Positions 5,941 to 45,256 of a DNA stretch of 64,000 nt are shown piece by piece. The position numbers and the translations under genes are program-made. Numbering within the stretch: the stretch's first letter is position 1; each line of letters opens with the position of its first letter. The DNA lies in the NCBI RefSeq assembly GCF_964204865.1, contig NC_135254.1:9429001-9493000 (forward strand), in the 5' to 3' direction. This DNA comes from Styela clava. Taxonomy: Eukaryota; Chordata; Ascidiacea; Stolidobranchia; Styelidae. The notes under the pieces are model-generated. The model was not told the DNA's origin, did not search any database, and saw only the letters and a list, made by a program, of their open reading frames with translations.

Positions 5941-6234
5941 CTGTTAGCTCTGTGAGATTTGTTTTTGTTTGCTATGACGTCATTAAACGTTCTGCGGACA
6001 TCGGACGCCATTTTGTGTCCTACTGTACTGCTTCGCTTGGTGTGAATATATGTGTAGACTCTGATCTGACGGTACGGTGAACCGTACTGTACTGCGAACA
6101 TACGTGTCCACATATTTGGGCGTAGCTCTCTTGTTTATTATTAGCTTAGTACTGATCGAGCTTTAAATCAAGTATATCATATTTTCATTTTATAGTTAGC
6201 TAAAATATAGGTAGCTTACTTTTGGGAATTAAGA

Positions 6235-8259
6235 ATGTCTGAAAGAAACGGTACTGATTGCAAATCAGAAAATATGGAGGCAGTGGTGATTGAAAACATA
6301 GCCGTGGTATCGGCAGAAGAAACAGACCAAAAGACATCGGGTTCTGTAATGAGTTTTCACAACGTATCATACACTGTAGAAGTAAACAAACCTTGTGGAT
6401 TTTGCCGTAGGTCGGATAAAATAGTGATTCTGAGCGACATTAGTGGCGTTATGCCCCCCGGTCTTAATGCAATTATGGGACCAACTGGGAGTGGTAAATC
6501 CTCTCTGCTTGATGTATTAGCAAACAGAAAAGACCCCGCTTGCTGCAGTGGCGTTGTGCTTTTAGATGGCCAACCAATACCGAAAAATTTTCGTTATGTG
6601 AGTGGTTATGTTGTTCAAAACGACCTTTTAGTCCCAACAGCATCTGTTAGAGAAACGTTATGGTTTTGCGCAAATCTTAGACTACCAACTTCGATTTCAC
6701 AAGATGACAAACGAAATAGGATTGAAAATATATTGAAAGATTTGGGGTTGCTTGCTTGCGCTGATACCAAAGTAGGAAATGAAATCATTCGTGGTATTTC
6801 TGGAGGAGAAAAGAAAAGAACTTCTATCGGTATAGAGCTTCTATTGGAGCCCAAAATACTTTTCTTGGATGAACCTACAACCGGGTTGGATTCGGCGACA
6901 GCATTGTCAGTCATGATTCTTCTCAAGCGGCTTGGAGAACAAGGACATACAATCGTATGCTCCATTCATCAACCACGTTATAGCATTTATAAACTGTTTG
7001 ATTCTCTGACTCTCCTTTCAGACGGAGAATTAGTTTACCACGACAATGCTACTAACTCCATTCAATTTTTTGAAAATCTTGGATATATTTGCGAGACTCA
7101 TGACAATCCGGCAGATTTCTTTCTTGACATTCTAAACGGTGATCACAAGAGGGCCATTACTTGTTCTTTCGCCGATGGGAAACCAGTGTCAGTAAATAAA
7201 GAGTTAAGAAAAATCCTGAAGACGGCTTATAAAGAGAATGAAAGCGCAGTATCTTTGCAAGAAAAAGCGAATAAAATTGAAGGGGCTGTCTACGAGGCGG
7301 AAAACAGCCACAGTCAAATGTACGCCACAAGTTTTAGACATCAAACAAAAATATTAATTAGACGTACTGCCAAGAACATGGTACGTCATCCGCAATCGCT
7401 ACTAGCGAATGCCGCGAGTAACGTGGTAATAGGACTGGTAATAGGACTAATTTATTATCAATTAGACAAGTCCACAGACATAGGAGTTCAAAATCGCTTG
7501 GGAGCATTCTTATTCATCATTGCAATCTTATTGATGCGATTTATGCTTGTTGTTAAGACATTCTGCAGAGACCAGCCCATATTTCGACATGAGCAGATTT
7601 CAGGGTACTACAGCGTTCCTTCTTATTTTGTTTCAAAAATCATTGCGGATCTCATTCCACTTTGTACAATATCTCCCATAATATTGAGTGCCATATCCTA
7701 TTGGATGGTTGGGTTTAAAGCAGAACCCGGAGCATTTTTCACATTTCTACTGACTGTAATTCTGACCAGCTATGGTGCAGTTGCAACAGGGATATTTTAC
7801 TCAGCGTCTTTGACACCAAATATTGGAAGCATTATGTTAATGTTAACATTCGTATGCAGTATCCTGTTTTCTGGTGCGCTGGTGAACGCTAGGAGCGTGA
7901 TGCCTTGGCTGTCTTGGTTACAGTATTTAAGTTTAGCTCGATATAGTCTTGTTGCATTGGCTGTCAACGAAATGCGAGGGCAAGTATTTTCTTCTTGTAC
8001 CAACTCTACGTCTCAGCCTTCTCCCCCGACAGGCTATTATGGTTCGGTAAACTACACCGGTAATATAAACGAGAACAAGACAATTTGTGTGTCTGTGAAA
8101 GGGGAAGAGTATCTTCACACCAGTCTTAACGTCGGAAAAAGTGCACAAAATATTACGAATTGGGATATGTGGCAAAACCATGTTTCTATGTGCTGTATTA
8201 TTGTCGGTTTACATATTCTAACTTACATTCAACTAGCACGTAGACGAACTTATTCTTAA
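6235..8259 (+). CDS. ABCG2: ABCG2-like half transporter, copy 1 (intact)
   Basis: This 674-residue single-exon gene encodes an ABC half transporter of subfamily G, expected to dimerise in a membrane and export organic substrates. The order is nucleotide-binding domain first, then membrane domain, as in all ABCG proteins. Walker A is GPTGSGKS (82-89), the signature ISGGEKKR is at 188-195, Walker B ILFLDEP at 208-214, and the H-loop SIHQPRYS at 243-250. About six hydrophobic segments follow from residue 395 to 665. A large outer loop near 585-620 has two cysteines and NST, NYT and NKT glycosylation sites, as in ABCG2. Length is close to human ABCG2 (655). The ATG at 6235 gives the full domain and is matched in copy 2. 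A possible AATAAA lies at 8446-8451. Vertebrate ABCG2 has many introns, so the lack of introns may reflect retroposition or intron loss. Closest family member judged from memory; another ABCG2-group paralogue is possible. Confidence 0.95.
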   Translation: MSERNGTDCKSENMEAVVIENIAVVSAEETDQKTSGSVMSFHNVSYTVEVNKPCGFCRRSDKIVILSDISGVMPPGLNAIMGPTGSGKSSLLDVLANRKDPACCSGVVLLDGQPIPKNFRYVSGYVVQNDLLVPTASVRETLWFCANLRLPTSISQDDKRNRIENILKDLGLLACADTKVGNEIIRGISGGEKKRTSIGIELLLEPKILFLDEPTTGLDSATALSVMILLKRLGEQGHTIVCSIHQPRYSIYKLFDSLTLLSDGELVYHDNATNSIQFFENLGYICETHDNPADFFLDILNGDHKRAITCSFADGKPVSVNKELRKILKTAYKENESAVSLQEKANKIEGAVYEAENSHSQMYATSFRHQTKILIRRTAKNMVRHPQSLLANAASNVVIGLVIGLIYYQLDKSTDIGVQNRLGAFLFIIAILLMRFMLVVKTFCRDQPIFRHEQISGYYSVPSYFVSKIIADLIPLCTISPIILSAISYWMVGFKAEPGAFFTFLLTVILTSYGAVATGIFYSASLTPNIGSIMLMLTFVCSILFSGALVNARSVMPWLSWLQYLSLARYSLVALAVNEMRGQVFSSCTNSTSQPSPPTGYYGSVNYTGNINENKTICVSVKGEEYLHTSLNVGKSAQNITNWDMWQNHVSMCCIIVGLHILTYIQLARRRTYS

Positions 8260-13203: not shown

Positions 13204-16200
13204 AGTGGCGGCGCGTCAATAGGGCCAACCGGGGCAATGCCCCGGTTGTTTTTTCGGTATAATAAAAAATATTCGAAAAATACCTCAATATCGGTTGCAC
13301 AGACTGTCTACACTAGCCATATTCTCCCGACATGGTTCATTTTTCGCTCGCAAAGCCTTCGCCGAACGTCGACGGGGCGACGCCGATTTTGCCCCAGTTG
13401 CTCATTGTATATCGTATTCTCTCTTTTATCTTCCACTCGCCGCGTTTGTCTCGTTTGTTTTCTGTTTCTTTTACTAAATCATCGGGGCTAGCCCCGAAAT
13501 TATGACGACACAATGCCGACGTTTCTTACAACAACGTGTTGACATATTCACGCATTCCTTCTCGTTCGTTGGTTGCTTGAAGAGTTGATAGTTTCCTCGC
13601 CTTCGTTTTTGTCGCTTGTTTCGCTATTTGAATCAGTTAGAGACCTTTAGTCCATTTGCTTTCGATTTTCCACATTCCTTTTGAGCTCCTCACTTCTTTC
13701 CGGCTTCGGCATTTCTTAGCCTTAAACCTCATAATGAATAAGGTTGATGCACTACTTCGCACTCCGTTTTCGCAGCTGCCGCTGGAACAAAAATTAGAGG
13801 TACAACGTCTTGGGCCTTATCAACCAAAAAATTGTTCACTGGAACAATCCCATGACGGAGGAAAGCGTCGGCGTACATTCTGCGCAGAAACTTGGTATAA
13901 AAAACACGAATGGTTGTGTTACAGCGAGGACAAAAATGCACTTTTTTGTTTTTATTGCCTACTTTTTGCTACCGCCCGTGACTCACGTTGGTGTAAATTT
14001 GGTTTTAGAGATCTTAAACATCTTTCCGAGCGTGCCAGGGATCATCAATCTTCTATGGAGCATCTGGACAATGCAGTAAAATACCGAACATTCGGAAATG
14101 TTATTATTGCAGCACAGTTGGATGAAAGACGCGCGGTTTCTATTCGTCGGCACAACCAAAACGTCGAGAAAAACCGCCATGTTCTCGGTCGATTGATAGA
14201 TGTTTTGAAGTTCATTGGTTGTCACGAGCTGTCCCTCCGTGGGTACGGTGAACGGGCTGGCTCTTCTAATAGATGGGTATTTTTGGATATGGTGGAATAC
14301 ACCGCATCCCTAGATACAGTATTGAGAGATCATCTTGATGCCGCAACTGTTTCGTCGAAAGGGACATCTAAGGATATCCAAAATGATTTGCTCGACTCAG
14401 GGTATAAAATTTATTTACAACATTTGGCTCTGGAAATTGAGAATTGCCAGTTCCTTTCGATTCAGTCTGACGAGACAACTGACATCACGTGCGTTTCCCA
14501 ACTGGCTGTGATTTTTCGGTTTGTGAAAGATGGTAAACCTACCGAGAGATTTCACAGTTTTGTACCAATCGTTGATCGCACGGCTTGCGGGATATCGGCT
14601 GTACTGAAAGAAGTGTTACAGCCTTACAACGCGAAGTCAAAACTGATAGCTCAAACTTATGACGGCGCGGCAGTCATGAGTGGGTCGAAACATGGTGTTC
14701 AAGTTTATATAAAATAAGATTTTCCTCATGCGCATTTTTTACATTGTTATGCACACCAATTTAACCTCGTTATTAAAAATATGTGTCTTGATACCCCTCT
14801 CGTCCGTATATTTTTTGCAAATGTTTCGTGGTTTTCTTCATTTTTTTCCGTTTCGCCGAAGCGCTCTGACCTCCTTCGCCAGATATGTAGCCGCCGTCTC
14901 CCAGCTTGTGCACCAACACGTTGGAACTTCCAATCACGCGTGGTGCAGGGCGTGTCCGAAATTAGGTCTGAGCTCATTGAGTGTTTCAATGGCATTCAGA
15001 GCTCTCCGGTTTGGGACGAACGCTCTGTGAGGGAGGCGGCAGGTCTAAAGCGTCTGCTAGAAGATGGTGAGTTTTCATTTTTTCTCGCTTTTTCCTCCAC
15101 AATATTCTATCACGTGGATGTATTATACGGCGCATTGCAGTCAAGGCTAATGGATGGAGCGTCTGTGCAGTCGTGTATTTCAGACTTCTGCTATGCTGTA
15201 TCTCGTATCCGGGAAACAATAAAATACGACGACACATGGAGTGCTTCTTTACGCCGCGGGCAAACAACGCAGCGTTTGATTTTGTCTGCAAAGGAATGCT
15301 GTGACATTCTGGTGAATCAAATAGACGATCGTCTGCGCACTGAACACCTTGCCGCGTTCTCTTTGATGAACCCCAAAAATTTTTCAAAATTTGCACGTCA
15401 ATTTCCCATCCATTTGTTGGCTACTGTCTCCAAATTTTACCCCATGATAAACGTGGGAAAATGAATTGCGATGTATATACACCAATCAAACTTTTTTGAA
15501 CATCACATCAACTTGCGCGCTCTATGGGTTCCTCATAGATAACACTCTAGTAACTACCTTTGAGGCGTCTGCAAAATTTCTGGACATCATTTTGACGACG
15601 CCTATGTCTTCCGCCGACGCAGAGCGAACATTCAGCACGCTGAAGCGTATTAAAACGTATCTCAGAAACACAATGAAGCAAGATAGATTAAATTCTTTGG
15701 CTGTTTTATCCATTTACAGAGACGTTATTTCTGGGATGCAAGACTTTAATCAGCGCGTTATTGAGCATTTTGCTTCCAAGAAACCGCGGCGTGTTGCATA
15801 TATGTTCAAGCAGTAGAAGTCTAGCAGCATATATATCTATGAGTGAGCGACGCATGTCCTTATCTTTGCATTACCTTTCCTTTCTTCATAGTAACGTTTT
15901 AAACCTTATTTTAGGTTTTGTCTGCTTTCCCGAAGTTTCTGTTAATATGTCATTGTATTTATCTGGGTAAATATTGCCTTTCCTTTTGAAAGAGGTTTCA
16001 AAATAAACTATGTCTATATTTATTAATCCCTTGACTTGGACCGGTTTTGAAGACACTTTCTTATCGTTAAAAATTGTCGCTTTTGCCGATTGGTTGTTAC
16101 CGATGGTTTTTATACTCATAAAATGATGGGAGAACTTACAGCGCTCATCCTGTCCCCGTAGATTGGGGTGACTTGGTCCCGCAGTAGCTTGCCCCGGTTG

Positions 16201-17528: not shown

Positions 17529-19553
17529 TTAAGAATAAGTTCGTCTACGTGCCAGTTGAATGTAAGTTAGAATATGTAAACCGACAATAATACAGCACAT
17601 AGAAACATGGTTTTGCCACATATCCCAATCCGTAATATTTTGGGCACTTTCTCCGACGTTAAGACTGGTGTGAAGATACTCTTCCCCCTCCACAGACACG
17701 CAAATTGTCTTGTTCTCGTTTATATTACCGGTGTAGTTTACCGAACCATAATAGCCTGTCGGGGGAGAAGGCTGAGACGTGAAGTTGGTACAAGAAGAAA
17801 ATATTTGCCCTCGCATTTCGTTGACAGCCAATGCAACAAGACTATATCGAGCTAAACTTAAATACTGTAACCAAGACAGCCAAGGCATCACGCTCCCAAC
17901 ATTTATCATAGCACCAGAAAATAGGATGCTGAATACGAATGTTAACATTAACATAATACTTCCAATATTTGGTGTCAAAGACGCTAAATAAAATATTCCT
18001 GTTGCAACTGCACCATAGCTGGTCAGGATTACAGTCAGTAGAAATGTGAAAAATGCTCCGGGTTCTGCTTTAAATCCAACCATCCAATAGGATATGGCAC
18101 TCAATATTATGGGAGATATTGTACAAAGTGGAATGAGATCCGCAATGATTTTTGAAATGAAATAAGGAGGAACGCTGTAGTACCCTGAAATTTGCTCGTG
18201 TCGAAATATGGCCTGGTCTCTGCTGAATGTGTTAATAACAAGCATAGATCGCATTAATAAGTTGGCACTGATAAAAAATTATGATCCTAAACGATTTTGA
18301 ACTCCTATAACTGGGGACTTGTCCAATTGAAAATAAATTAGTCCTATTACTAGTCCTATTACCACGTTGGTCGCGGTATTTGCTAGTAGCGATTGCGGGT
18401 GACGTACCATGTTCTTGGCGGTACGTCTGATTAATATCTTTGTTTGATGCCTGAAACTTGTAGCGTACATTTGACCGTGGTTGTTTTCCGCCACGTAGAC
18501 AGCCTCTTCTATTTTATTCAGTTTTTCTTGCAAAGACACTGCGCTTTCATTCTCTTTATAAGCCGTCTTCAGGATATTTGTTATATCTTTATTTACTTCT
18601 ACTGATTTTCCATCGGCGGAAGAACAAGTAATGGCCCTCTTGTGATCACCGTTTAGAATGTCAAGAAAGAAATCTGCCGGATTGTCATGAGTCTCACAAA
18701 TATATCCAAGATTTTCAAAAAATTGGATGGAGTTAGTAGCATCGCCGTGATAAACTAATTCTCCGTCAGAAAGGAGAGTTAGAGAATCAAACAGTTTATA
18801 AATGCTATAACGTGGTTGATGAATAGAGCATACGATTGTATGTCCTTCTTCTCCAAGCCGCTTGAGAAGAATCATGACTGACAATGCTGTCGCCGAATCC
18901 AACCCGGTTGTAGGCTCATCCAAGAAAAGTATTTTTGGCTCCAATAGAAGCTCTATACCGATAGAAGTTCTTTTCTTTTCTCCTCCAGAAATACCACGAA
19001 TGATTTCATTTCCTACTTTGGTATCAGCGCAAGCAAGCAACCCCAAATTTTTCAATAAATTATCAATCCTATTTCGTTTGTCATCTTGTGAAATCGAAGT
19101 TGGTAGTCTAAGATTTGCGCAAAACCATAACGTTTCTCTAACAGATGCTGTTGGAACTAAAAGATCATTTTGAACAACATAACCACTCAGATAACGAAAA
19201 TTTTTCGGTATTGGTTGGCCATCTAAAAGCACAACGCCACTGCAGCAAGCGGGGTCTTTTCTGTTTGCTAATACATCAAGCAGAGAGGATTTACCACTCC
19301 CAGTTGGTCCCATAATTGCATTAAGACCGGGGGGCATAACGCCACTAATGTCGCTGAGAATCACTATTTTTTCCGACATACGACAAAATCCACAAGGTTT
19401 CTTCACTTCTACAGTGTACGATACTTTGTGAAAACTCATCACAGAACCCGATGTCTTTGGGTCTGTTTCTTCTTCCGGTACCACTGCTATGTTTTCAATC
19501 ACCACTGCCTCCATATTTTCTGAATTGCAATCAGTAACGTTTTCTTCAGACAT
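17529..19553 (-). pseudogene. ABCG2: ABCG2-like half transporter, copy 2, with one in-frame TAA
   Basis: The reading frame from the ATG at 19553 to the stop at 17529 has exactly the same number of codons as copy 1 (674 plus the terminal stop), with no frameshift. It is cut by a single TAA at codon 425 (18279-18281, minus strand), just inside the second membrane segment where copy 1 has AFLF. Upstream, all nucleotide-binding motifs are intact (GPTGSGKS, ISGGEKKR, ILFLDEP, SIHQPRYS); downstream the membrane domain continues unchanged to the same RRRTYS end. Substitutions against copy 1 are concentrated in the first 60 residues and the linker, while the membrane part is nearly identical, suggesting constraint until recently. 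A truncated product would have the ATPase domain and one membrane segment and could not transport. Readthrough, a polymorphic null allele or an assembly error are alternatives. Confidence 0.88.
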
Positions 19554-19728
19554 TCTTTATTACAGAAAGTACCACAGACGGAAGAGAATGAAATATATTT
19601 TAGCTAAATACAAAATAAAAATATGATAAAAAGCATGTCATGAATTTTGCACAGTAAGGCGCCTAGATATATCCTACTTGATTGGAGCTCAAGCAATACC
19701 AACAAGAACAATATAATAACAATACAAT

Positions 19729-22006: not shown

Positions 22007-22106
22007 GGCGTTCCAGAAATATGGCGCACAACCTGATAAACCTAACCTGGTGCACATACTATGTTCAGGTTGTGCGCCATCTTGGTACACATACTTCGGG
22101 AGCATC
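22007..22106. mobile_element. 100-bp MITE of the GGCG(C/T)TCCAGAA family
   Basis: The left end is GGCGTTCCAGAAATATGG and the right end contains CATACTTCGGGAGC. Flanks are tagtaatt (21999-22006) and tattaatt (22107-22114), 7 of 8 identical. The interior is nearly palindromic ('gcgcacaacctg' against 'caggttgtgcgc'). Arm 1 lacks it. Confidence 0.78.
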
Positions 22107-31732: not shown

Positions 31733-31741
31733 TATATTTAG

Positions 31742-32000
31742 ACCTAGGTAAAGCTAGCGGCCACTTACAGCGGACAGTTACCAATTTTTCCAAATTTGAA
31801 CCCGCCATGTTCAACGACAGTTGTCGCGAATTCACTTAATTGCGCCTACATGGATGCAAAAAATTAGGCGATTCTCCCTTTTAGAAACTGACGACAGACC
31901 TGAAACATAATAAAAAACAAAAATGATTGAAACAACACATTTTTTCCTCGATAAAATGAATTATTGCTCAGAAGCTCATTTATCGACAAAATCTAAAATT
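31742..32000 (+). repeat. Left terminal domain of the giant element
   Basis: It is unique, non-tandem sequence matching the reverse of about 44990-45247 with only scattered differences (for example 'cttacagcgg' against 'cttcgagcgg'). It contains 'gaacccgccatgttc' and 'taggcgcaattaagtg'-type segments in both ends. It probably includes the transposase binding site. Confidence 0.85.
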
Positions 32001-35000
32001 TAACTGAGTTGAAGCGTAATTTATGCAAGAAATAATTTTTTCTCATCCAATTCATTAATACAGTGAATTTGATGAAGATATATAAAACATATATTAAATT
32101 TTAAAACAATTCCACTATGCGGAAAGTTGGGAAATACCCCCCAATTAAAGGAAAATTTTTAAGAAATTGTCAATATAACTCAGTTAAAGCGTAATTTATG
32201 CAGGAAATAATATTTTCTCATCCAATTCATTAATACAGTGTATTTGGTGGACAAATATAAAATACATATTGAAATTTAAAAAAAATCCACCGTGCGGAAA
32301 GTAGAAAAATTCCCCCCTGTTTAAGAAAAAAATATAGGAAATCTCCAATTTAACTCAGTTTAAGCGTAATTTAGGTAAGAAGGAATTTTTTCTCATCCAA
32401 TTCATTAATGCAATGTGTTTGGTGGACAAATATAAAATAGATATCAAAATTTAAAAAAAATCCACCGTGCGGAAAGTAGGGAAAGTCCCCTCAATTTAAT
32501 GAAAATATTTAAGAAATCGTCTATCCAACTCAGTTAAAGCATAATTTATGCAAGAAAGAATATTTTCTCATCCAATTCATTAATACAATGTATTTGGTGG
32601 ACAGATATAAAATACATATTAAAATTTAAAAAAAATCCACCATGCGGAAAGTAGGGAAATTCGGTACTCTCGAAATATGGACACAAAGATGACGCACAAC
32701 CTGAATATAAAAGGTGTACCAGGATAGGTTCAGATTTAGAATCTAGATTGTACGCTTTTGGGAGCGCAGGGAATAACCCATTTATGCAAAAAATAATTTT
32801 TTCTCATCCAATTTATTAATACAGTGTATTTGATGGATATATATAAAATATATATAAAAATTTAAAAAAAATCCACCGTGCGGAAAGTAGGGAAATTTCC
32901 CTCAATTGAAGAAAAAAATATAAGAAATCGTTGATTTGACTCAGTTAAAGCGTAATTTAGGTAAGAAGGAGTTTTTTCTCATCCAATTCATTAATGCAGT
33001 GTTTTTGTTGGACAAATATAAATACATATTAAAATTTAAAAAAAATACACCGTGCGGAAAGTAGGGAAATTCCCCCCAATTGGAGAAAAAAATATAAGAA
33101 ATCGTCAATTTAACTCAGTTAAAGCATAATTTATGCAAGAAAGAATATTTTCTCCTCCAATTCATTGATACAGTGTATTTGGTGGACAAATATAAAATAC
33201 ATATCAAAATTTAAAAAAAATCCACCTTGCGGAAAGTAGGGAAATTCTCCCCAATTTGATGAAAATATTTGAGAAATCGTTTATTTACTTCAGTTAAAGC
33301 GCAATTCATTTAAGAAAGAATATTTTCTCATCCAATTCATTGATACAGTGTATTTGGTGGACAAATATAAAATACATATTAAAATTTAAAAAAAATCCAC
33401 CGTGCGGAAAGTAGGGAAATTCCCCCCAATTGAAGAAAAAAATATAAGAAATCGTTAATTTAACTCAATTAAAGCGTAATTTAGGTAAGAAGGAATTTTT
33501 TTTCATCCAATTCATTAATACAGTGTATTTGGTGGACGGATATAAAATACATATCAAAATATAAAAAAAATCCACGGTGCGGAAAGTAGGGAAATTCCCC
33601 CCAATTTGATGAAAATATTTGAGAAATTGTCTATTTAACTCAGTTAAAGCGTAATTTATCCAAGAAAGAATATTTTCTCATCCAATTCATTAATACGGTG
33701 TATTTGGTGGACAAATATAAAATACATATTAAAATTTAAAAAAAATCCACCGTGCGGAAAGTAGGGAAATTCCCCTCAATTGAAGAAAAAAAATATAAGA
33801 AATTGTCAATTTGACTCAGTTAAAGCGTAATTTAGGTAAGAAGGAATTTTTTCTCATCCAATTCATCAATGCAGTGTGTTTGGTGGACAAATATAAAATA
33901 GATATCAAAATTTTAAAAAAATCCACCGTGCGGAAAGTAGGGAAATTCCCACCAATTTGATGAAAATATTTGAGAAATCGTCTATTCAACTCAGTTAAAG
34001 CGTAATTTATTCAAGAAAGAATATTTTCTCATCCAATTCATCAATACGGTGTATTTGGTGGACAAATATAAAATACATATTAAAATTAAAAAAAAATCCA
34101 CCATGCGGAAAGTAGGGAAATTCCCCTCAATTTAATGAAAATATTTAAGAAATCGTCTATCCAACTCAGTTAAAAAATAATTTATGCAAGAAAGAATATT
34201 TTCTCATCCAGTTCATTAATACAGTGTATTTGGTGAACAAATATAAAATACATATTAATATTTAAAAAAAATCCACCGTGCGGAAAGTAGGGAAATTCCC
34301 CTCAATTGAAGAAAAAAATATAAGAAATCGTCAATTTGACTCAGTTAAAGCGTAATTTAGGTAAGAAGGAGTTTTTTCTCATCCAATTCATTAATGCAGT
34401 GTTTTTGGTGGACAAATATAAAATACCTATTAAAATTTTAAAAAAATCCACCGTGCGGAAAGTAGGGAAATTCCCCCCAATTGAAGAAAAAAATATAAGA
34501 AATCGTCAATTTAACTCAATTAAAGCGTAATTTAGGTGAGAAGGAATTTTTTCTCATCCAATTCATTAATGCAGTGTGTTTGGTGGACAAATATAAAATA
34601 CATATCAAAATTTAAAAAAAATCCACCGTGCGGAAAGTAGGGAATTCCCCCTCAATTAAAAAATATATATAGGAGATATCGTCTATTGGACTCAGTTAAA
34701 GTGTAATTTAGGTAAGAAGGAATTTTTTCTCATCCAATTCATTAATGCAGTGTGTTTGGTGGACAAATATAAAATACATATTAAAAGTTAAAAAAAATCC
34801 ACCATGCGGAAAGTAGGGAAATTCGGTACTCTCGAAATATGGACACAAAGATGACGCACAACCTGAATATAAAAGGTGTACCAGGATAGGTTCAGATTTA
34901 GAATCTAGATTGTACGCTTTGGGGAGCGCAGGGAATAATCCATTTATGCAGAAAATAATTTTTTCTCATCCAATTTATTAATACAGTGTATTTGGTGGAC

Positions 35001-37743
35001 GAATATAAAATACATATTAAAATTTAAAAAAAATCCACCGTGCGGAAAGTAGGGAAATTCCCCCCAATTTGATGAAAATATTTGAGAAATCGTCTATTTA
35101 ACTCAGTTAAAGCGTAATTTATCCAAGAAAGAATATTTTCTCATCCAATTCATTAATACGGTGTATTTGGTAGACAAATATAAAATACATATTAAAATTT
35201 ATAAAAAATCCACCGTGCGGAAAGTAGGGAAATTCCCCTCAATTTAATGAAAATATTTAAGAAATCGTCTATCCAACTCAGTTAAAAAATAATTTATGCA
35301 AGAAAGAATATTTTCTCATCCAGTTCATTAATACAGTGTATTTGGTGGACAAATATAAAATAAATATTAATATTTAAAAAAAATCCACCGTGCGGAAAGT
35401 AGGGAAATTCCCCTCAATTGAAGAAAAAAATATAAGAAATCGTCAATTTGACTCAGTTAAAGCGTAATTTAGGTAAGAAGGAGTTTTTTCTCATCCAATT
35501 CATTAATGCAGTGTTTTTGGTGGACAAATATAAAATACATATTAAAATTTAAAAAAAATCCACCGTGCGGAAAGTAGGGAAATTCCCCCCAATTGAAGAA
35601 AAAAATATAAGAAATCGTCAATTTAACTCAATTAAAGCGTAATTTAGGTAAGAAGGAATTTTTTCTCATCCAATTCATTTATGCAGTGTTTTTGGTGGAC
35701 AAATATAAAATACCTATTAAAATTTTAAAAAAATCCACCGTGCGGAAAGTGGGGAAATTCCCCCCAATTGAAGAAAAAAATATAAGAAATCGTCAATTTA
35801 ACTCAATTAAAGCGTAATTTAGGTGAGAAGGAATTTTTTCTCATCCAATTCATTAATGCAGTGTGTTTGGTGGACAAATATAAAATACATATTAAAATTT
35901 AAAAAAAATCCACCGTGCGGAAAGTAGGGAAATCCCCCTCAATTAAAAAATATATATAAGAAATCGTCAATTTGACTCAGTTAAAGTGTAATTTAGGTAA
36001 GAAGGAATTTTTTCTCATCCAATTCATTAATGCAGTGTGTTTGGTGGACAAATATAAAATACATATTAAAAGTTAAAAAAAATCCACCATGCGGAAAGTA
36101 GGGAAATTCGGTACTCTCGAAATATGGACACAAAGATGACGCACAACCTGAATATAAAAGGTGTACCAGGATAGGTTCAGATTTAGAATCTAGATTGTAC
36201 GCTTTGGGGAGCGCAGGGAATAATCCATTTATGCAGAAAATAATTTTTTCTCATCCAATTTATTAATACAGTGTATTTGGTGGACGAATATAAAATACAT
36301 ATTAAAATTTAAAAAAAATCCACCTTGCGGAAAGTAGGGAAATTCCCCCCAATTTGATGAAAATATTTGAGAAATCGTCTATTTAACTCAGTTAAAGCGT
36401 AATTTATCCAAGAAAGAATATTTTCTCATCCAATTCATTAATACGGTGTATTTGGTGGACAAATATAAAATACATATTAAAATTTAAAAAAAATCCACCG
36501 TGCGGAAAGTAGGGAAATTCCCCTCAATTTAATGAAAATATTTAAGAAATCGTCTATCCAACTCAGTTAAAAAATAATTTATGCAAGAAAGAATATTTTC
36601 TCATCCAGTTCATTAATACAGTGTATTTGGTGGACAAATATAAAATAAATATTAATATTTAAAAAAAATCCACCGTGCGGAAAGTAGGGAAATTCCCCTC
36701 AATTGAAGAAAAAAATATAAGAAATCGTCAATTTGACTCAGTTAAAGCGTAATTTAGGTAAGAAGGAGTTTTTTCTCATCCAATTCATTAATGCAGTGTT
36801 TTTGGTGGACAAATATAAAATACATATTGAAATTTAAAAAAAATCCACCGTGCGGAAAGTAGGGAAATTCCCCCCAATTGAAGAAAAAAATATAAGAAAT
36901 CGTCAATTTAACTCAATTAAAGCGTAATTTAGGTAAGAAGGAATTTTTTCTCATCCAATTTATTTATGCAGTGTTTTTGGTGGACAAATATAAAATACCT
37001 ATTAAAATTTTAAAAAAATCCACCGTGCGGAAAGTGGGGAAATTCCCCCCAATTGAAGAAAAAAATATAAGAAATCGTCAATTTAACTCAATTAAAGCGT
37101 AATTTAGGTGAGAAGGAATTTTTTCTCATCCAATTCATTAATGCAGTGTGTTTGGTGGACAAATATAAAATACATATTAAAATTTAAAAAAAATCCACCG
37201 TGCGGAAAGTAGGGAAATCCCCCTCAATTAAAAAATATATATGAGAAATCGTCAATTTGACTCAGTTAAAGTGTAATTTAGGTAAGAAGGAATTTTTTCT
37301 CATCCAATTCATTAATGCAGTGTGTTTGGTGGACAAATATAAAATACATATTGAAAGTTAAAAAAAATCCACCATGCGGAAAGTAGGGAAATTCGGTACT
37401 CTCGAAATATGGACACAAAGATGACGCACAACCTGAATATAAAAGGTGTACCAGGATAGGTTCAGATTTAGAATCTAGATTGTACGCTTTGGGGAGCGCA
37501 GGGAATAATCCATTTATGCAGAAAATAATTTTTTCTCATCCAATTTATTAATACAGTGTATTTGGTGGTCGAATATAAAATACATATTAAAAGTTAAAAA
37601 AAATCCACCATGCGGAAAGTAGGGAAATTCGGTACTCTCGAAATATGGACACAAAGATGACGCACAACCTGAATATAAAAGGTGTACCAGGATAGGTTCA
37701 GATTTAGAATCTAGATTGTACGCTTTTGGGAGCGCAGGGAATA
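32000..37743 (+). repeat. Left tandem array, ~175-bp monomer with 1,285-bp higher-order repeat
   Basis: The monomer landmark 'gcggaaagtaggg' recurs about every 175 bp (for example 33404, 33579, 33754, 33930). Monomers alternate between types marked 'tgaaaatatt..gaaatcgtc' and 'gaagaaaaaaatataag'. Five units carry an embedded MITE, whose 'ggtactctcg' starts at 32662, 34825, 36110, 37395 and 37631. The spacing 34825-36110-37395 is exactly 1,285 bp twice, equal to six plain monomers plus one MITE-bearing unit of about 236 bp. The last interval (37395 to 37631) is a single such unit. Apparent reading frames here are not genes. Confidence 0.92.
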
Positions 37744-38402
37744 AATGACCGTCTCACTGCTACTGTTCCCGACAGACAACTCAATAACAATTCTACCTCT
37801 ACATGATTCCAAATGGGATATAAAAGTATAATTTATTCAATCACAAGCAATTAAATAGTTTTTATAATTCGTTTGTAACTGTTCTCAAATTTTTTGATCG
37901 GCACATACTTTCAGACTATTATTTACTCCTTTCAACTGATGACAAAGAATCGCCGTGATGTTTACGTTACGGATAGTTATATTGCTGGTTGTATTTTTCA
38001 CCAACATACCAGCATGCATCACCATCTAATGACTGATGTAAGTCAATCTTTCAATCTTTGATGTTTTTAATTTTTCAGGCGGATAGGAAACAACCAATAA
38101 ATATATCCGAGGCTCGAGAACCCCGGTGTAATTGATTTATAATATAATATATTTATATATGTATAAGTTGATTTCATGATTACTTTTGTTACAAAAATAT
38201 GAAAAAAACAATTTGACGCCGAACACCTCGGATTTGAATGTAAAACTGCTGGAATATACTTGCGGAACTATGATCGAAAACCATTGGTATAAACAAAATT
38301 AGGGTTGGAAAAATCGACATTGTTTTTTTATCTAAAAAGTCCATATTCATCTTTCCTACAACACTTTAATATCATACTTATATCATCTCATTTGTTTTAC
38401 AG

Positions 38403-39807
38403 TTAAATTTAGGAAACTATAGCGTGATTGTTTCTGCGTGCAGGATAAATGGAAATCACTGGGTTCTTTTGGTGAGGATGAAGTTTTGTTTTGAAATTTC
38501 AATAATATTCAATAAATAAAAAATTGTTGTGGCATAATTACATATTGCTTTTTTGTATTTGATTCTTCATTTTGATTCGAACAAAATATCTTTGTAATTC
38601 ATTGACACAACGAGAAATAATTTCTACTTTCTGAATCCGTATGGAAGTTCAATTGAAGAGACCGCTCACGCATGTAAAAATTATAAGTGAGTTCAATTCC
38701 TGAAATACATCTTATCGTTAGCCATTTCAACTACAAGCTAAAGTAGAAACTCAATAAACCTTTACTTCACTGTTGCCAGATCGCTTTCAAATCCTGGAGT
38801 GGATTTTTTAAAATTATCTTCTTTACAGTTATCCAGTCCTTTATTTTTAATATTCTATTTCTCTTGTTGAAAGTATTCGGCTGTTTTCGTAAAAACGTGT
38901 CCTGTTCTTACAAATAATATATGAACTACATAATCACATTGTACCAGTAACAAACTGTATTTACAATTGGAATGACATTGACAATTGTGAATGACATTGA
39001 AATTGAATGAAAAGTATTGATTTTTAAAAATGAAGTTACATGAAAAGTATATTAGTAAAACTGAATTTACACACGTTACAACACACAGAAACTGGATGAA
39101 TTTACAAAAAGAATGCGAAAACTGGACACCAATGGTTACTGAACATCCCATTCAGAGGGATGGATCCAGTTGTGGAATTTACGTGATAAAGGTATATAGG
39201 AAGTCATACAAATTTAATTATCCATACATCAGTATATGTTCTTTGTCAATTTATTCACAAGAAATTGTTCCATAAGAATTTATTAATTTATTTTCATATA
39301 CCAAACAACATTCTCATGATTTTCTTCACACTATTTTGCGTTATTTTGAAACAACTTATTTTGTCTATTGGTTCTTTGGCATATATTCGATTGCAGTTCG
39401 CTTGGATGATGCTGGAAACTAAAAGCATCCATGTTGTTTCACCAATCGATGAAAGGGCGAAAATTGCCAGTTGGGTGATTTAGAATTCCGGTATGACGAA
39501 ATGAATATTTGATATTTAGATAATTATCTAAACATTACGCAGTTAAAAAATACATTTTTGACAGACTGCGTGGAGACGTACTACAGTTTTTGTGGGGAGA
39601 CGGGAGAATGAGAATGGGTAAGTAACCTAATAGGTGTTCAATAAACATGCAATATATAATTTTATATTCATGTTATTTTGACTTTTTTTAAAGATTGGCT
39701 GTGATGTGTGTCCACGCTGGTTTTATGCTGGATGCTACAACGGAGATATTGCGGAGATATTGGACGTACTTTGGAAATGTCCAGCATACGAGGCCGGTTG
39801 GCATTAA
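38403..39807 (+). pseudogene. Ulp1 (C48) cysteine peptidase with PHD-type finger, decayed
   Basis: Exon-like blocks join in phase: 38403-38471 (ends GNHWVLL, the catalytic His motif), about 38601-38686 (IDTTRN then YFLNPYGSS, where the catalytic Asp position reads Asn), 39089-39191 (HPIQRDGSSCGIYVIK, with the oxyanion Gln and the nucleophile Cys), and 39397-39483 (FAWMMLETK, ending in TAG). Further blocks 39565-39617 and 39694-39807 give an in-frame TGA and then GCDVCPRWFYAGC with WKCPA, typical of a PHD finger. Decay signs are the missing acceptor before 38601, the Asp to Asn change, an early TAG, the TGA, and loss of one zinc-binding Cys. The 5' part of the gene is absent. Ulp1 peptidases cleave SUMO-like modifiers; in transposons their role is unknown. 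Exon joins are my own reading. Confidence 0.78.
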
Positions 39808-39918
39808 AACGCATTTGATGTAAAAATAAGTTTCAAAGGGTTGCCACTTGACACTAACAAGTAGATCAAATGGCCATTTTCCGTTAACCTGTCCATTGAG
39901 TACAGAGCCATGAATATA

Positions 39919-40576
39919 CAGTAGAAGCGCTACCCACGAAATTAATTCGTTCCGAAGACCCTAGGTATTACATAAGGCGTTTTACCTGTAAATGCCCTAA
40001 TCCGTTTTAGGTCCACGTAAAACTCGGACATCATTTTCGTATAAATTATATTAATGCTTAAAATCCAACAACTACATGTTAGAATCAGATTACAGCATAA
40101 TAAATAAACAAAGAACATACGGAAAGAAGGAAGAACACAGTAATAACGAATAAAAACTAAGAACGGTATGCTTATGTACCTTTGTTTACCATCGTCATAA
40201 TCAAATGATTGATTCCCAAATTACCGTCCGCCACTGATGGAGAATTAAGACCAGAAAACTTGTTTTATTTTTTAAGTCGGTTTTTACTTGATTTGAGTCG
40301 GCGCTAATCTTTCATGTCTGGTGTTATTATTTTAATTTTGCTTATTGATATCGCCAACTTAAAGTGAACGATATTGTCATCAACGACGTCATATTCGGTA
40401 TTCTCAAAAACACCAAAAAACGATATTCGAAGGTCGCAATATTCAAATATTAGGTTTGTATTGAACATCCCTGCATTAAATTAATCTAAAATGAACAAAT
40501 ATCACTATGCAAGTTTTCGGAAAAGAATTGTTGGATTTTTCGTATCCAGAGCCTTTCGTACGTAGAGTTTCTACTG
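39919..40576. mobile_element. TA-flanked MITE inside the giant element (658 bp)
   Basis: Ends CAGTAGAAGCGCTACCCACG and, reversed, CAGTAGAAACTCTACGTACG form inverted repeats flanked by TA (39917-39918 and 40577-40578). The reading frame at 40601-40873 lies outside it and has no recognisable domain. It inserted into the centre of the giant element. Confidence 0.7.
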
Positions 40577-41228
40577 TATACAAGTTTTTCGTGATATTTA
40601 TTGCTTCCATTTTTTTGTGATTGGCGAATAAAAAACGATTTGTTGATTGATTCAAGTGGTATCTTCATTTGGGAATTGAAAGTTTCTTCATACGTTTACA
40701 GTGATCGTAGCGGCTGCTATCGATCGTATCGTCGTTTCTTCCAACGTCTTAGTACGGTGTGCCATACTTCCTTTAGCTCTTTAATACAGTTTCACAGTCT
40801 TCTAAATTCTGAGATATTTTTTAACAACAGCATTAAACGGTTCGGCGACATACATATTCGACATAACAAATGAAGCGCCATAAGTGTCAAATCGTTACTA
40901 ATCTTGATGACGCCACCTCATCTGTTAAGGTTGAAAATACTATTCTGATTTAGGCTGCTGATGTACTGGGTTAAGGCTGCACGTTCACCGAAGGTGACCC
41001 AAAGATACCAGCATAAGTTACTACTGAGGTTTTACGGAAGGTAGTGCTATATGGAGTGAGCGGGGGTGTTACGAGGTTGTAGTGTAAACCAATAAAATGA
41101 AATAAGAACTTGATAAAACTTCAAAAATAATATTTAGTTATGGAGGCAAATGGGAATGATCAATAAATATGACAAGATTTCGCTTTAATTTATATAAATT
41201 TACGATTCCGTTGATTTTAACATAAGTT

Positions 41229-44200
41229 AGGGGAATTTCCCAACTTTCCGCACGGTGGAATATTTTTAAAATTTAATATTCGTTTTATATATCACCATCA
41301 AATACACTGTATTAATGAACTGGATGAGAAAATATTATTTCTTGGATAAATTACGCTTTAACTGAGTTAAATAGACGATTTCTCAAATATTTTCATCAAA
41401 TTGGGGGGAATTTCCCTACTTTCCGCACAGTGGATTTTTTTTTAAATTTTAATATGTATTTTATATTCGTCCACCAAATACACTGTATTAATGAATTGGA
41501 TCAGAAAATATTCTTTCTTGCATAAATTATGCTTTAACTGAGTTGGACAGACGATTTCTTAAATATTTTCATTAAATTGAGGGGAATTTCCCTACTTTCC
41601 GCACGGTGGATTTTTTTTAAATTTTATTATCTATTTTATATTTGTCCACCAAACACACTGCAGTAATGAATTGGATGAGAAAAATTTCCTTCTTACCTAA
41701 ATTACGCTTTAACTGAGTTAAATTGACCGTTTCTTATATTTTTTTCTTCAATTGAGGGGAATTTCCCTACTTTCCGCAGGGTGGATTTTTTTTAAATTTT
41801 AATATGTATTTTATATCTGTCCACAAAATACATTGTATTAATGAATTGGATGATAAAAAATTCTTTCTTGCATAAATTATGCTTTAACTGAGTTGGATAG
41901 ATGATTTCTTAAATATTTCCATTAAATTGGGGGAAATTTCCCTACTTTCCGCACGGTGGATTTTTTTTAAATTTTAATATGTATTTTATATTTGTCCACC
42001 AAACACACTGCATTAATGAATTGGATGAGAAAATACTCTTTCTTGGATAAATTACGCTTTAACTGAGTTAAATAGACGATTTCTCAAATATTTTCATCAA
42101 ATTGGGGGGAATTTCCCTACTTTCCGCACGGTGGATTTTTTTTTAACTCTAATATATATTTTATATATATCCATCAAATACACTGTATTAATAAATTGGA
42201 TGAGAAAAAATTATTTTTTGCAAAAATGGGTTATTCCCTGCGCTCCCAAAAGCGTACAATCTAGATTCTAAATCTGAACCTATCCTGGTACACCTTTTAT
42301 ATTCAGGTTGTGCGTCATCTTTGTGTCCATATTTCGAGAGTACCGAATTTCCACACTTTCAGCATGGTGGATTTTTTTAAATTTTAATATGTATTTTATA
42401 TTCGTCCACCAAACACACTGCATTAATGAATTGGATGAGAAAAAATTCCTTCTTACCTAAATTACGCTTTAACTGAGTCAAATTGACAATTTCTTATATT
42501 TTTTTCTTCAATTGAGGGGAATTTCCCTACTTTCCGCATGGTGAATTTTTTTAAATTTTAATATGTATTTTATATTCGTCCACCAAACACACTGCATTAA
42601 TGAATTGGATGAGAAAAAATTCCTTCTTACCTAAATTACGCTTTAATTGAGTTAAATTGACGATTTCTTATATTTTTTTCTTCAATTGGGGGGAATTTCC
42701 CTTCTTTCCGCACGGTGGATTTATTTTAAATTTTAATATGTATTTTATATTTGTCCACCAAATACACTGTATTAATGAATTGGATGAGAAAATATTCTTT
42801 CTTGCATAAATTATTTTTTAACTGAGTTGGATAAACAATTTCTTAAATATTTTCATTAAATTGAGGGGAATTTCCCTACTTTCCGCACGGTGGATTTTTT
42901 TAAAATTTCAATATGTATTTTATGTTCGTCCACAAATACACTGTATTAATGAATTGGATGAGAAAATATTCTTTCTTGCATAAATTATTTTTTAACTGAG
43001 TTGGATAGACGATTTCTCAAATATTTTCATCAAATTGGGGGGAATTTCCCTACTTTCCGCACGGTGGATTTTTTTTAAATTTCAATATGTATTTTATATT
43101 TGTCCACCAAATACACCGTATCAATGAATTGGATGAGAAAATATTCTTTCTTGCATAAATTATTTTTTAACTGAGTTGGATAGACGATTTCTCAAATATT
43201 TTCATCAAATTGGGGGGAATTTCCCTACTTTCCGCACGGTGGATTTTTTTCAAATTTCAATATGTATTTTATATTCGTCCATCAAATACACTGTATTAAT
43301 GAATTGGATGAGAAAATATTCTTTCTTGCATAAATTATTTTTTAACTGAGTTGGATAGACGATTTCCTAAATATTTCCATTGAATTGGGGGGAATTTCCC
43401 TACTTTCCGCACGGTGGATTTTTTTTAAATTTTAATATGTATTTTATATCTGTCCACCAAATACACCGTATTAATGAATTGGATGAGAAAATATTCTTTC
43501 TTGCATAAATTATGCTTTAACTGAGTTAAATTGACGATTTCCTATATTTTTTTCTCCAATTGGGGGGAATTTCCCTACTTTCCGCACGGTGGATTTTTTT
43601 TAAATTTTAATATGTATTTATATTTGTCCAACAAAAACACTGCATTAATGAATTGGATGAGAAAAAACTCCTTCTTACCTAAATTACGCTTTAACTGAGT
43701 CAAATCAACGATTTCTTATATTTTTTTCTTCAATTGAGGGAAATTTCCCTACTTTCCGCACGGTGGATTTTTTTTAAATTTTAATATATATTTTATATAT
43801 ATCCATCAAATACACTGTATTAATAAATTGGATGAGAAAAAATTATTTTTTGCATAAATGGGTTATTCCCTGCGCTCCCAAAAGCGTACAATCTAGATTC
43901 TAAATCTGAACCTATCCTGGTACACCTTTTATTTTCAGGTTGTGCGTCATCTTTGTGTCCATATTTCGAGAGTACCGAATTTACCTACTTTCCGCATGGT
44001 GGATTTTTATTAACTTTCAATATGTATTTTATATTTGTCCACCAAACACACTGCATTAATGAATTGGATGAGAAAAAATTCCTTCTTACCTAAATTACGC
44101 TTTAACTGAGTCAAATTGACGATTTCTTATATATATTTTTTAATTGAGGGGGAATTCCCTACTTTCCGCATGGTGGATTTTTTTTAAATTTTAATATGTT

Positions 44201-44990
44201 TTTTATATTTGTCCACCAAACACACTGCATTAATGAATTGGATGAGAAAAAATTCCTTCTTACCTAAATTACGCTTTAATTGAGTTAAATTGACGATTTC
44301 TTATATTTTTTTCTTCAATTGGGGGGAATTTCCCTACTTTCCGCACGGTGGATTTTTTTTAAGTTTCAATATGTATTTTATATCTGTCCACCAAATACAT
44401 TGTATTATTGAATTGGATGAGAAAATATTCTTTCTTGCATAAATTATGCTTTAACTGAGTTGGATAGACGATTTCTTAAATATTTTCATTGAATTGAGGG
44501 GAATTTCCCTACTTTCCGCACGGTGGATTTTTTTTTAAATTTTGATATCTATTTTATATTTGTCCACCAAACGCATTGCATTAATGAATTGGATGAGAAA
44601 AAATTCCTTCTTACCTAAATTACGCTTTAACTGAGTTAAATTGGAGATTTTCTATATTTTTTTCTTAAACTGGGGGGAATTTTTCTACTTTCCGCACGGT
44701 GGATTTTTTTAAAATTTCAATATGTATTTAATATTTGTCCACCAAATACACTGTATTAATGAATTGGATGAGAAAATATTATTTCCTGCATAAATTACGC
44801 TTTTTCTGAGTTATATTGACAATTTCTTAAAAATTTTCCTTTAATTGGGGGGTATTTCCCAACTTTCCGCATAGTGGAATTGTTTTAAAATTTAATATAT
44901 GTTTTATATATCTTCATCAAATTCACTGTAATAATGAATTGGATGAGAAAAAATTATTTCCTGCATAAATTACGCTGCAACTCAGTTAAA
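41229..44990 (-). repeat. Right tandem array, inverted relative to the left
   Basis: The landmark reversed ('ccctactttccgcacggtgg') recurs about every 175 bp. Two units carry the embedded MITE (reverse orientation, ending with 'gagagtacc' at 42344 and 43976, about 1,632 bp apart). The array is shorter than the left one and lacks the 1,285-bp higher-order repeat, so the arms have evolved separately after their origin. Confidence 0.92.
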
Positions 44991-45247
44991 TTTTAGATTT
45001 TGTCGATAAATGAGTTTCTGAGCAATAATTCATTTTATCGAGGAAAAAATGTGTTGTTTCAATCATGTTTGTTTTTTATTATGTTTCAGGTCTGTTGTCA
45101 GTTTCTAAAAGGGAGAATCGCCTAATTTTTTGCATCCATGTAGGCGCAATTAAGTGAATTCGCGACAAATGTCGTGGAACATGGCGGGTTCAAATTTGGA
45201 AAAATTGGTAACTGTCCGCTCGAAGTGGCCGCTAGCTTTACCTAGGT
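44990..45247 (-). repeat. Right terminal domain of the giant element
   Basis: Reverse counterpart of 31742-32000. It ends 'ggccgctagctttacctagg' t before the target duplication. Confidence 0.85.
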
Positions 45248-45256
45248 TATATTTAG

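Follow-up and report, generated by a model that had tools for sequence, protein, structure and literature searches.

Foldback transposons such as Drosophila Foldback (FB) and the TU elements of sea urchins have long inverted arms built from tandem subrepeats, and target-site duplications of approximately 8-9 bp flank them. The family described here, from the tunicate Styela clava, has the same features, although FB and TU differ from it in having short subrepeats and unrelated middles. The closest described group in overall anatomy appears to be Rehavkus, regarded as a sister of, or a family within, the Mutator superfamily (PMC6446971, PMC10218199). In the accessible parts of its descriptions, Rehavkus combines 9-bp duplications, a PHD finger and a minisatellite lying ahead of the 3' terminal repeat (PMC6446971), and Rehavkus-1_TC of Tribolium, 9.5 kb in length, contains a 164-bp satellite in its inverted termini (PMC10218199). 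Two other systems, as characterized in the portions of the reports consulted, share parts of this organization: (i) Tetris of Drosophila virilis, an apparently non-autonomous foldback element with a unique outer domain, tandem repeats of ~220 bp in variable number and 8-9 bp duplications in three complete copies (PMC4079207), and (ii) Tm1, of the Phantom subclass of Mutator, with composite ends containing tandem units, mostly 9-bp duplications, and both coding and non-coding forms (PMC3169594). Separately, Ulp1 is recorded in animal and plant Mutator transposons, one Ginger1 family bears Ulp1 with a PHD at its C-terminus, and the Ulp1 and PHD sequences of Ginger1 and Mutator transposases are aligned together in a figure of the available section of that report (PMC2836005).

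Within a 64,000-nt stretch of the S. clava genome (the window) we document a real, complete, recently inserted foldback copy. The original prediction matched the combination of these features with an intron-containing Ulp1/PHD gene to no named family; set against the available descriptions, Rehavkus in fact comes close, since both have 9-bp duplications, a PHD finger and satellite DNA in inverted termini. The two differ in several respects, as far as those descriptions extend: Rehavkus encodes a transposase, whereas none was found in the window family; its hosts are given as arthropods/insects and annelids, rather than tunicates; a Ulp1 domain was not found in its descriptions, whereas the window family has Ulp1 exons; and its arrays are mostly of five and eight units, compared with up to 35 units per arm here. 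By the same kind of partial comparison, the middle of Tetris lacks apparent coding capacity, whereas the centre of the window family includes Ulp1/PHD exons, and the Tetris repeat also occurs in large arrays (PMC4079207), whereas none appeared for the 175-bp unit of the window family among the matches listed; Tm1 has units of only 13-15 bp and a known coding form with a Phantom-like transposase (PMC3169594). The Ulp1-bearing Ginger1 and Mutator transposons, as presented in the part of the report available, carry a transposase, in contrast to the window family, and Ginger1 elements end in TGTNR and make duplications of 4 bp (PMC2836005), neither of which was found in a family having 8-9 bp duplications and ACCTA ends. 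No description of the family was found among the open-access papers listed for tunicates or for this combination of features; as judged from those listings, it looks like a new family of a kind already known, the foldback transposons.

The element and its family

The element spans window positions 31742-45247 (13,506 bp) and is organized as follows:

31733..31741 (no strand): left 9-bp target-site duplication, TATATTTAG
31742..31997 (+): left unique terminal domain (256 bp), beginning ACCTAGGTAAAGCTAGC, 97.3% identical to the right end
31998..37744 (+): left arm, 175-bp tandem repeat, 5,747 bp, with five 115-bp inserts
37745..41176 (+): single-copy centre, ~3.4 kb
41177..44991 (-): right arm, 175-bp repeat inverted, 3,815 bp, with two 115-bp inserts
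44992..45247 (-): right unique terminal domain, inverted, 256 bp
45248..45256 (no strand): right 9-bp target-site duplication, TATATTTAG

The TATATTTAG duplication is perfect. ACCTAGGTAAAGCTAGC is present at each end, its inverted copy terminating at 45247, and the ends are ACCTAGGT-like. In inverted orientation, the 97.3% identity of the two sides pertains to their outer 259 bp, and both arms are built in opposite orientation of a single 175-bp tandem unit. These measurements bear out the original prediction on each of its structural points: a perfect 9-bp duplication with inverted ends, near-identical terminal domains, opposed arms of 5.7 and 3.8 kb made of one 175-bp repeat, and a single-copy centre between them.

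We interrogated the S. clava assembly (376.6 Mb; 379 contigs) with the outermost 20 bases of the element. Allowing up to two mismatches, we located this pattern at 60 places, compared with none for the reversed control pattern, so the terminal sequence is not confined to the window. Twenty-two copies were examined at both ends: 13 read whole (the window copy included), seven as ends only, and two further whole copies. Perfect duplications of 9 bp flank 15 of these and duplications of 8 bp another five, the latter also perfect, so that 20/22 insertions show the 8-10 bp duplications associated with foldback elements, and a majority show the 9-bp length usual for Mutator; none of 462 control pairings of mismatched left and right flanks shared 8-10 bp. 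The copies lacking a duplication are C3 and C14, and the flanks of C14 resemble a 9-bp duplication minus one base. Long inverted arms of tandem subrepeats thus surround a middle that varies, being the shared centre, another sequence, or none. Both L069, having a different centre, and L070, having none, are flanked by 9-bp duplications, indicating that the shared centre is unnecessary in cis.

Other open frames lie elsewhere in the window. By eye, three of them, side by side at 13641-15816 (+) and 358, 248 and 121 aa long, resemble a broken hAT-type transposase gene, and two very similar ABCG-like transporter frames occur in opposite orientation at 6211-8259 (+) and 17529-19556 (-), the latter split into two frames.

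Arms of 175-bp units

The 13 whole copies contain 525 units, with lists of unit lengths that vary from copy to copy. Analysis of nearest relatives was applied to 475 of these, 50 units outside the range of 170-180 bp being excluded; mean similarity among the 475, drawn from all 13 copies, was ~85%. For most units (327/475) the nearest relative was present only in another element. For 75 it occurred only in the same arm, and for 42 more the same arm was tied with others (117 total), whereas the opposite arm provided the only nearest relative for 19 and a tied one for 12 more (31 total); random expectations were 4.1% for the same arm and 4.0% for the opposite arm. Nearest relatives in the same arm were mostly 6-12 units apart and, with their excess over expectation, this spacing argues for local duplication of blocks within arms. 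Continuing exchange between the arms of one element receives little support, the 19-31 opposite-arm relatives being hardly above the random level, and the terminal domains give a similar indication: they are barely more alike within an element (98.0%) than between elements (97.5%; C16c excluded from the means), which counts against such exchange. There is accordingly little sign of inter-arm exchange, with the exception of a foreign 115-bp insert that is common to both arms.

This insert occurs five times in the left arm of the window copy (starting at 32663, 34825, 36110, 37395 and 37631) and twice in the right (42230-42344 and 43862-43976), with 99-100% identity across arms among the alignments listed. 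It is partly similar to a short dispersed palindromic repeat. A 64-bp match to the insert (80%) lies elsewhere in the window, at 22039-22102, and part of the insert is matched by a short palindromic repeat near L038:5267-5369.

A genome search using one 175-bp unit retrieved at least 806 matches, from 40 of 88 candidate sequences; among the matches listed, inspection by eye placed all at loci having at least one family end, and free arrays of the unit were not found among them.

The centre and its Ulp1/PHD exons

The centre, whole or partial and in either orientation, is present in 12 of the 13 copies read whole, C16c being the one without it. Eleven centres differ from their consensus by 0.5-1.1% and from one another by 0.56-2.2% (median 1.6%); that of C17, reduced to 734 bp and 3.8% from the consensus, was excluded from subsequent counts. 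The window copy lacks 343 bp near position 40390 that are present in 10/10 other whole-read copies spanning that point, and C18b apparently lacks this segment as well. Within the centre, positions 39916-40579 resemble other dispersed repeats at 70-78%, so the centre may be composite.

The original prediction placed at this centre a Ulp1/PHD gene containing introns. The exons of such a gene are indeed discernible:

38403..38471 (+): Ulp1 exon with HW motif
38601..38687 (+): Ulp1 exon, NPYG compared with DSMG in SENP1
39090..39191 (+): Ulp1 exon with QRDGSSCG; junction to the next exon as in LOC120338846
39397..39480 (+): last Ulp1 exon; the stop at 39481 is private to the window copy
39564..39608 (+): first PHD exon; the stop at 39609 is private to the window copy
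39694..39804 (+): second PHD exon; PHD match 5e-4 in the window copy, 2.2e-7 in the family reading

When joined by hand, the exons match Pfam Peptidase_C48 (3.7e-9), the match spanning profile positions 92-187 of 217 only. The second PHD exon of the window copy, taken alone, gives a weak match below the cut-off, which the family reading passes. Six-frame scanning of the unspliced centre yielded only a sub-threshold PHD match (0.075), so that the Ulp1/PHD gene becomes visible only after splicing. Used as a protein query, the spliced exons retrieved two predicted S. clava proteins, LOC120338846 (96% identity, 68% of the query aligned) and LOC144420842 (94% identity, 51% aligned); the first shares three exon junctions with the element and the second the last two.

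The Ulp1/PHD gene of the original prediction needs correction, for it is in this copy a broken remnant with no detectable purifying selection. The window copy has two in-frame stops within the Ulp1/PHD reading. The one at 39481 is missing from 9/9, and the one at 39609 from 10/10, other copies with sequence there, and some other copies carry stops of their own elsewhere in the exons. Variants in the exons comprise 32 nonsynonymous and two stop changes versus six synonymous changes, on 399.7 and 98.3 sites; purifying selection was therefore not detected in this young burst (Fisher p = 0.54), a comparison of limited power. Variant density is 0.080 in the exons versus 0.051 and 0.061 outside. In the family reading His, Gln and Cys, which we take to be active-site residues of Ulp1, are retained, whereas the position we assign to the catalytic aspartate is Asn in 10/10 copies with sequence and that presumed to be the last PHD cysteine is Tyr in 10/11 copies.

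Superfamily placement and origin

Pfam scanning of six unspliced frames revealed no transposase domain in the centre of the window copy; this type of scan also misses the Ulp1 exons and is thus insensitive to short exons. The genome contains 82 matches to MULE transposase, and by eye none of these, among the matches listed, lies between any of the 60 family end matches. The original prediction had proposed to look for a copy whose arms enclose a MULE transposase; none was found among the matches listed, and the failure to find a transposase in the centre or, among those matches, between the ends indicates that the family is probably non-autonomous. Placement near Mutator consequently relies on the length of the duplications, the anatomy, and published precedents for Ulp1/PHD. 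By duplication length and anatomy, we infer that the family is closest to the Mutator-type Foldback elements, above all Rehavkus; the affinity to a Foldback/Mutator-like group originally suggested is supported by the 8-9 bp duplications and inverted satellite arms.

MULE domains do occur at loci of similar anatomy and other sequence. At L047:3139-6738 (C2:10281500-10291000) a 16-bp repeat forms inverted arrays on either side of a MULE-domain frame of 403 aa, and at L048:2228-5816 (C6:21866000-21875400) a weak PHD match, a weak FLYWCH match and a MULE domain lie between inverted segments, in which a 67-bp repeat has 9.7 copies on the left and about two on the right. Clean ends were not found at either locus. 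A MULE domain at L045 (C14:13916081) is flanked by 1,387-bp inverted halves that are 99.6% identical.

We consider it quite likely that the window element is complete, was inserted recently, and belongs to a probably non-autonomous foldback family working in the manner of Mutator/Rehavkus-type foldback elements. A transposase made elsewhere would bind the terminal domains and move the element, leaving duplications of 8-9 bp; blocks of units would slip or be exchanged unequally, changing arm length; inter-arm exchange, occurring once or more, would have brought the 115-bp insert into both arms; and the Ulp1/PHD exons would be what is left, at the 3' end, of a gene that belonged to the ancestral element, the transposase part having been lost.

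Older relatives bear on the last of these steps. On C3, an older and decayed relative has a PHD exon, and ~130 bp beyond the end of the PHD match lies a terminal domain resembling that of the family (66% match); no 175-bp unit was found in the 9 kb read there. A search with the C3 terminal domain gave a partial inverted match ~9.2 kb upstream (81% over 126/229 bases), which is taken as the putative other end of this relative, and a Pfam scan of three forward frames of part of the upstream region (C3:3914800-3917449) gave no match. Such a layout would follow from an ancestral gene having Ulp1-PHD at its 3' end, and this relative suggests that the exons may be remains of the element's own gene. 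At L037, on C13, lies another decayed relative, in which no ends were recognised, and the search with the C3 terminal domain showed C13:18899500-18906600 to be bounded by matches to this kind of terminal domain.

Alternatively, the exons could be a passenger of the Pack-MULE type, taken up from a host gene and then amplified. The retention of introns is as seen in gene-fragment capture, and the failure to detect either purifying selection on the exons or a transposase in the centre is compatible with a passenger. Set against these points are the adjacency of the same exons to a terminal domain in the C3 relative, the publication of Ulp1 in animal and plant Mutator transposons (in the section of the report available; PMC2836005), and the search for a donor: none of the exon matches listed below 1e-5 revealed an intact gene in which this Ulp1 and PHD are paired, and those outside these elements comprised the decayed relatives at C13 and C3, C6:8510219, and C4:22370691 (56%, one stop). 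Capture is therefore conceivable, yet on balance doubtful. One further candidate for an intact Ulp1-PHD gene, a 1288-aa frame at C6:15749885 (30% match), was discarded, as its first 272 aa have a PHD but no Ulp1 match.

The family might instead belong to another cut-and-paste superfamily with duplications of ~8 bp, such as P/Galileo, hAT or KDZ/Zisupton. The 8-bp duplications of five copies would fit, and Galileo, of the P superfamily, has foldback arms according to the accessible part of its description; the prevalence of 9-bp duplications (15/22), which to our knowledge are not typical of P, hAT or KDZ, makes this assignment unlikely. It is also improbable that some copies carry a working Ulp1/PHD gene that aids transposition or counters host silencing: while the two predicted S. 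clava proteins share junctions with the exons and the putative His, Gln and Cys are kept, nonsynonymous changes are as frequent per site as synonymous ones and variants are denser in the exons than outside, the putative catalytic aspartate and last PHD cysteine are almost uniformly replaced, and less than half of the protease profile is matched. Finally, repeats of this kind are prone to mis-assembly, but an artefact in which a tandem satellite was wrongly folded into an inverted structure is extremely improbable, as the original prediction's own concern on this point is answered by the inverted layout of 13 whole loci with differing repeat lists, 12 of them having perfect 8-9 bp duplications.

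Returning to a Mutator/Rehavkus-type foldback family, a more specific history is possible, and we advance it tentatively: the family may represent a deuterostome Rehavkus-like branch whose autonomous form ended in Ulp1-PHD, whose internally deleted descendants made their ends into element-borne satellites, and in which a foreign insert was copied from arm to arm. Foldback arms of satellite-sized units tie transposons to the way in which satellite DNA is born. Here a single assembly gives both ends of at least 22 copies, and the 11 centres compared are only 0.6-2.2% apart while the arms differ in repeat number; this pairing of near-identical centres with differing arms makes models of arm growth, inter-arm exchange and transposase loss testable. 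The Ulp1/PHD association of Mutator-like elements may extend to tunicates and, if the Rehavkus-like ancestry is correct, the birth and remodelling of arrays would be traceable copy by copy within a young burst.
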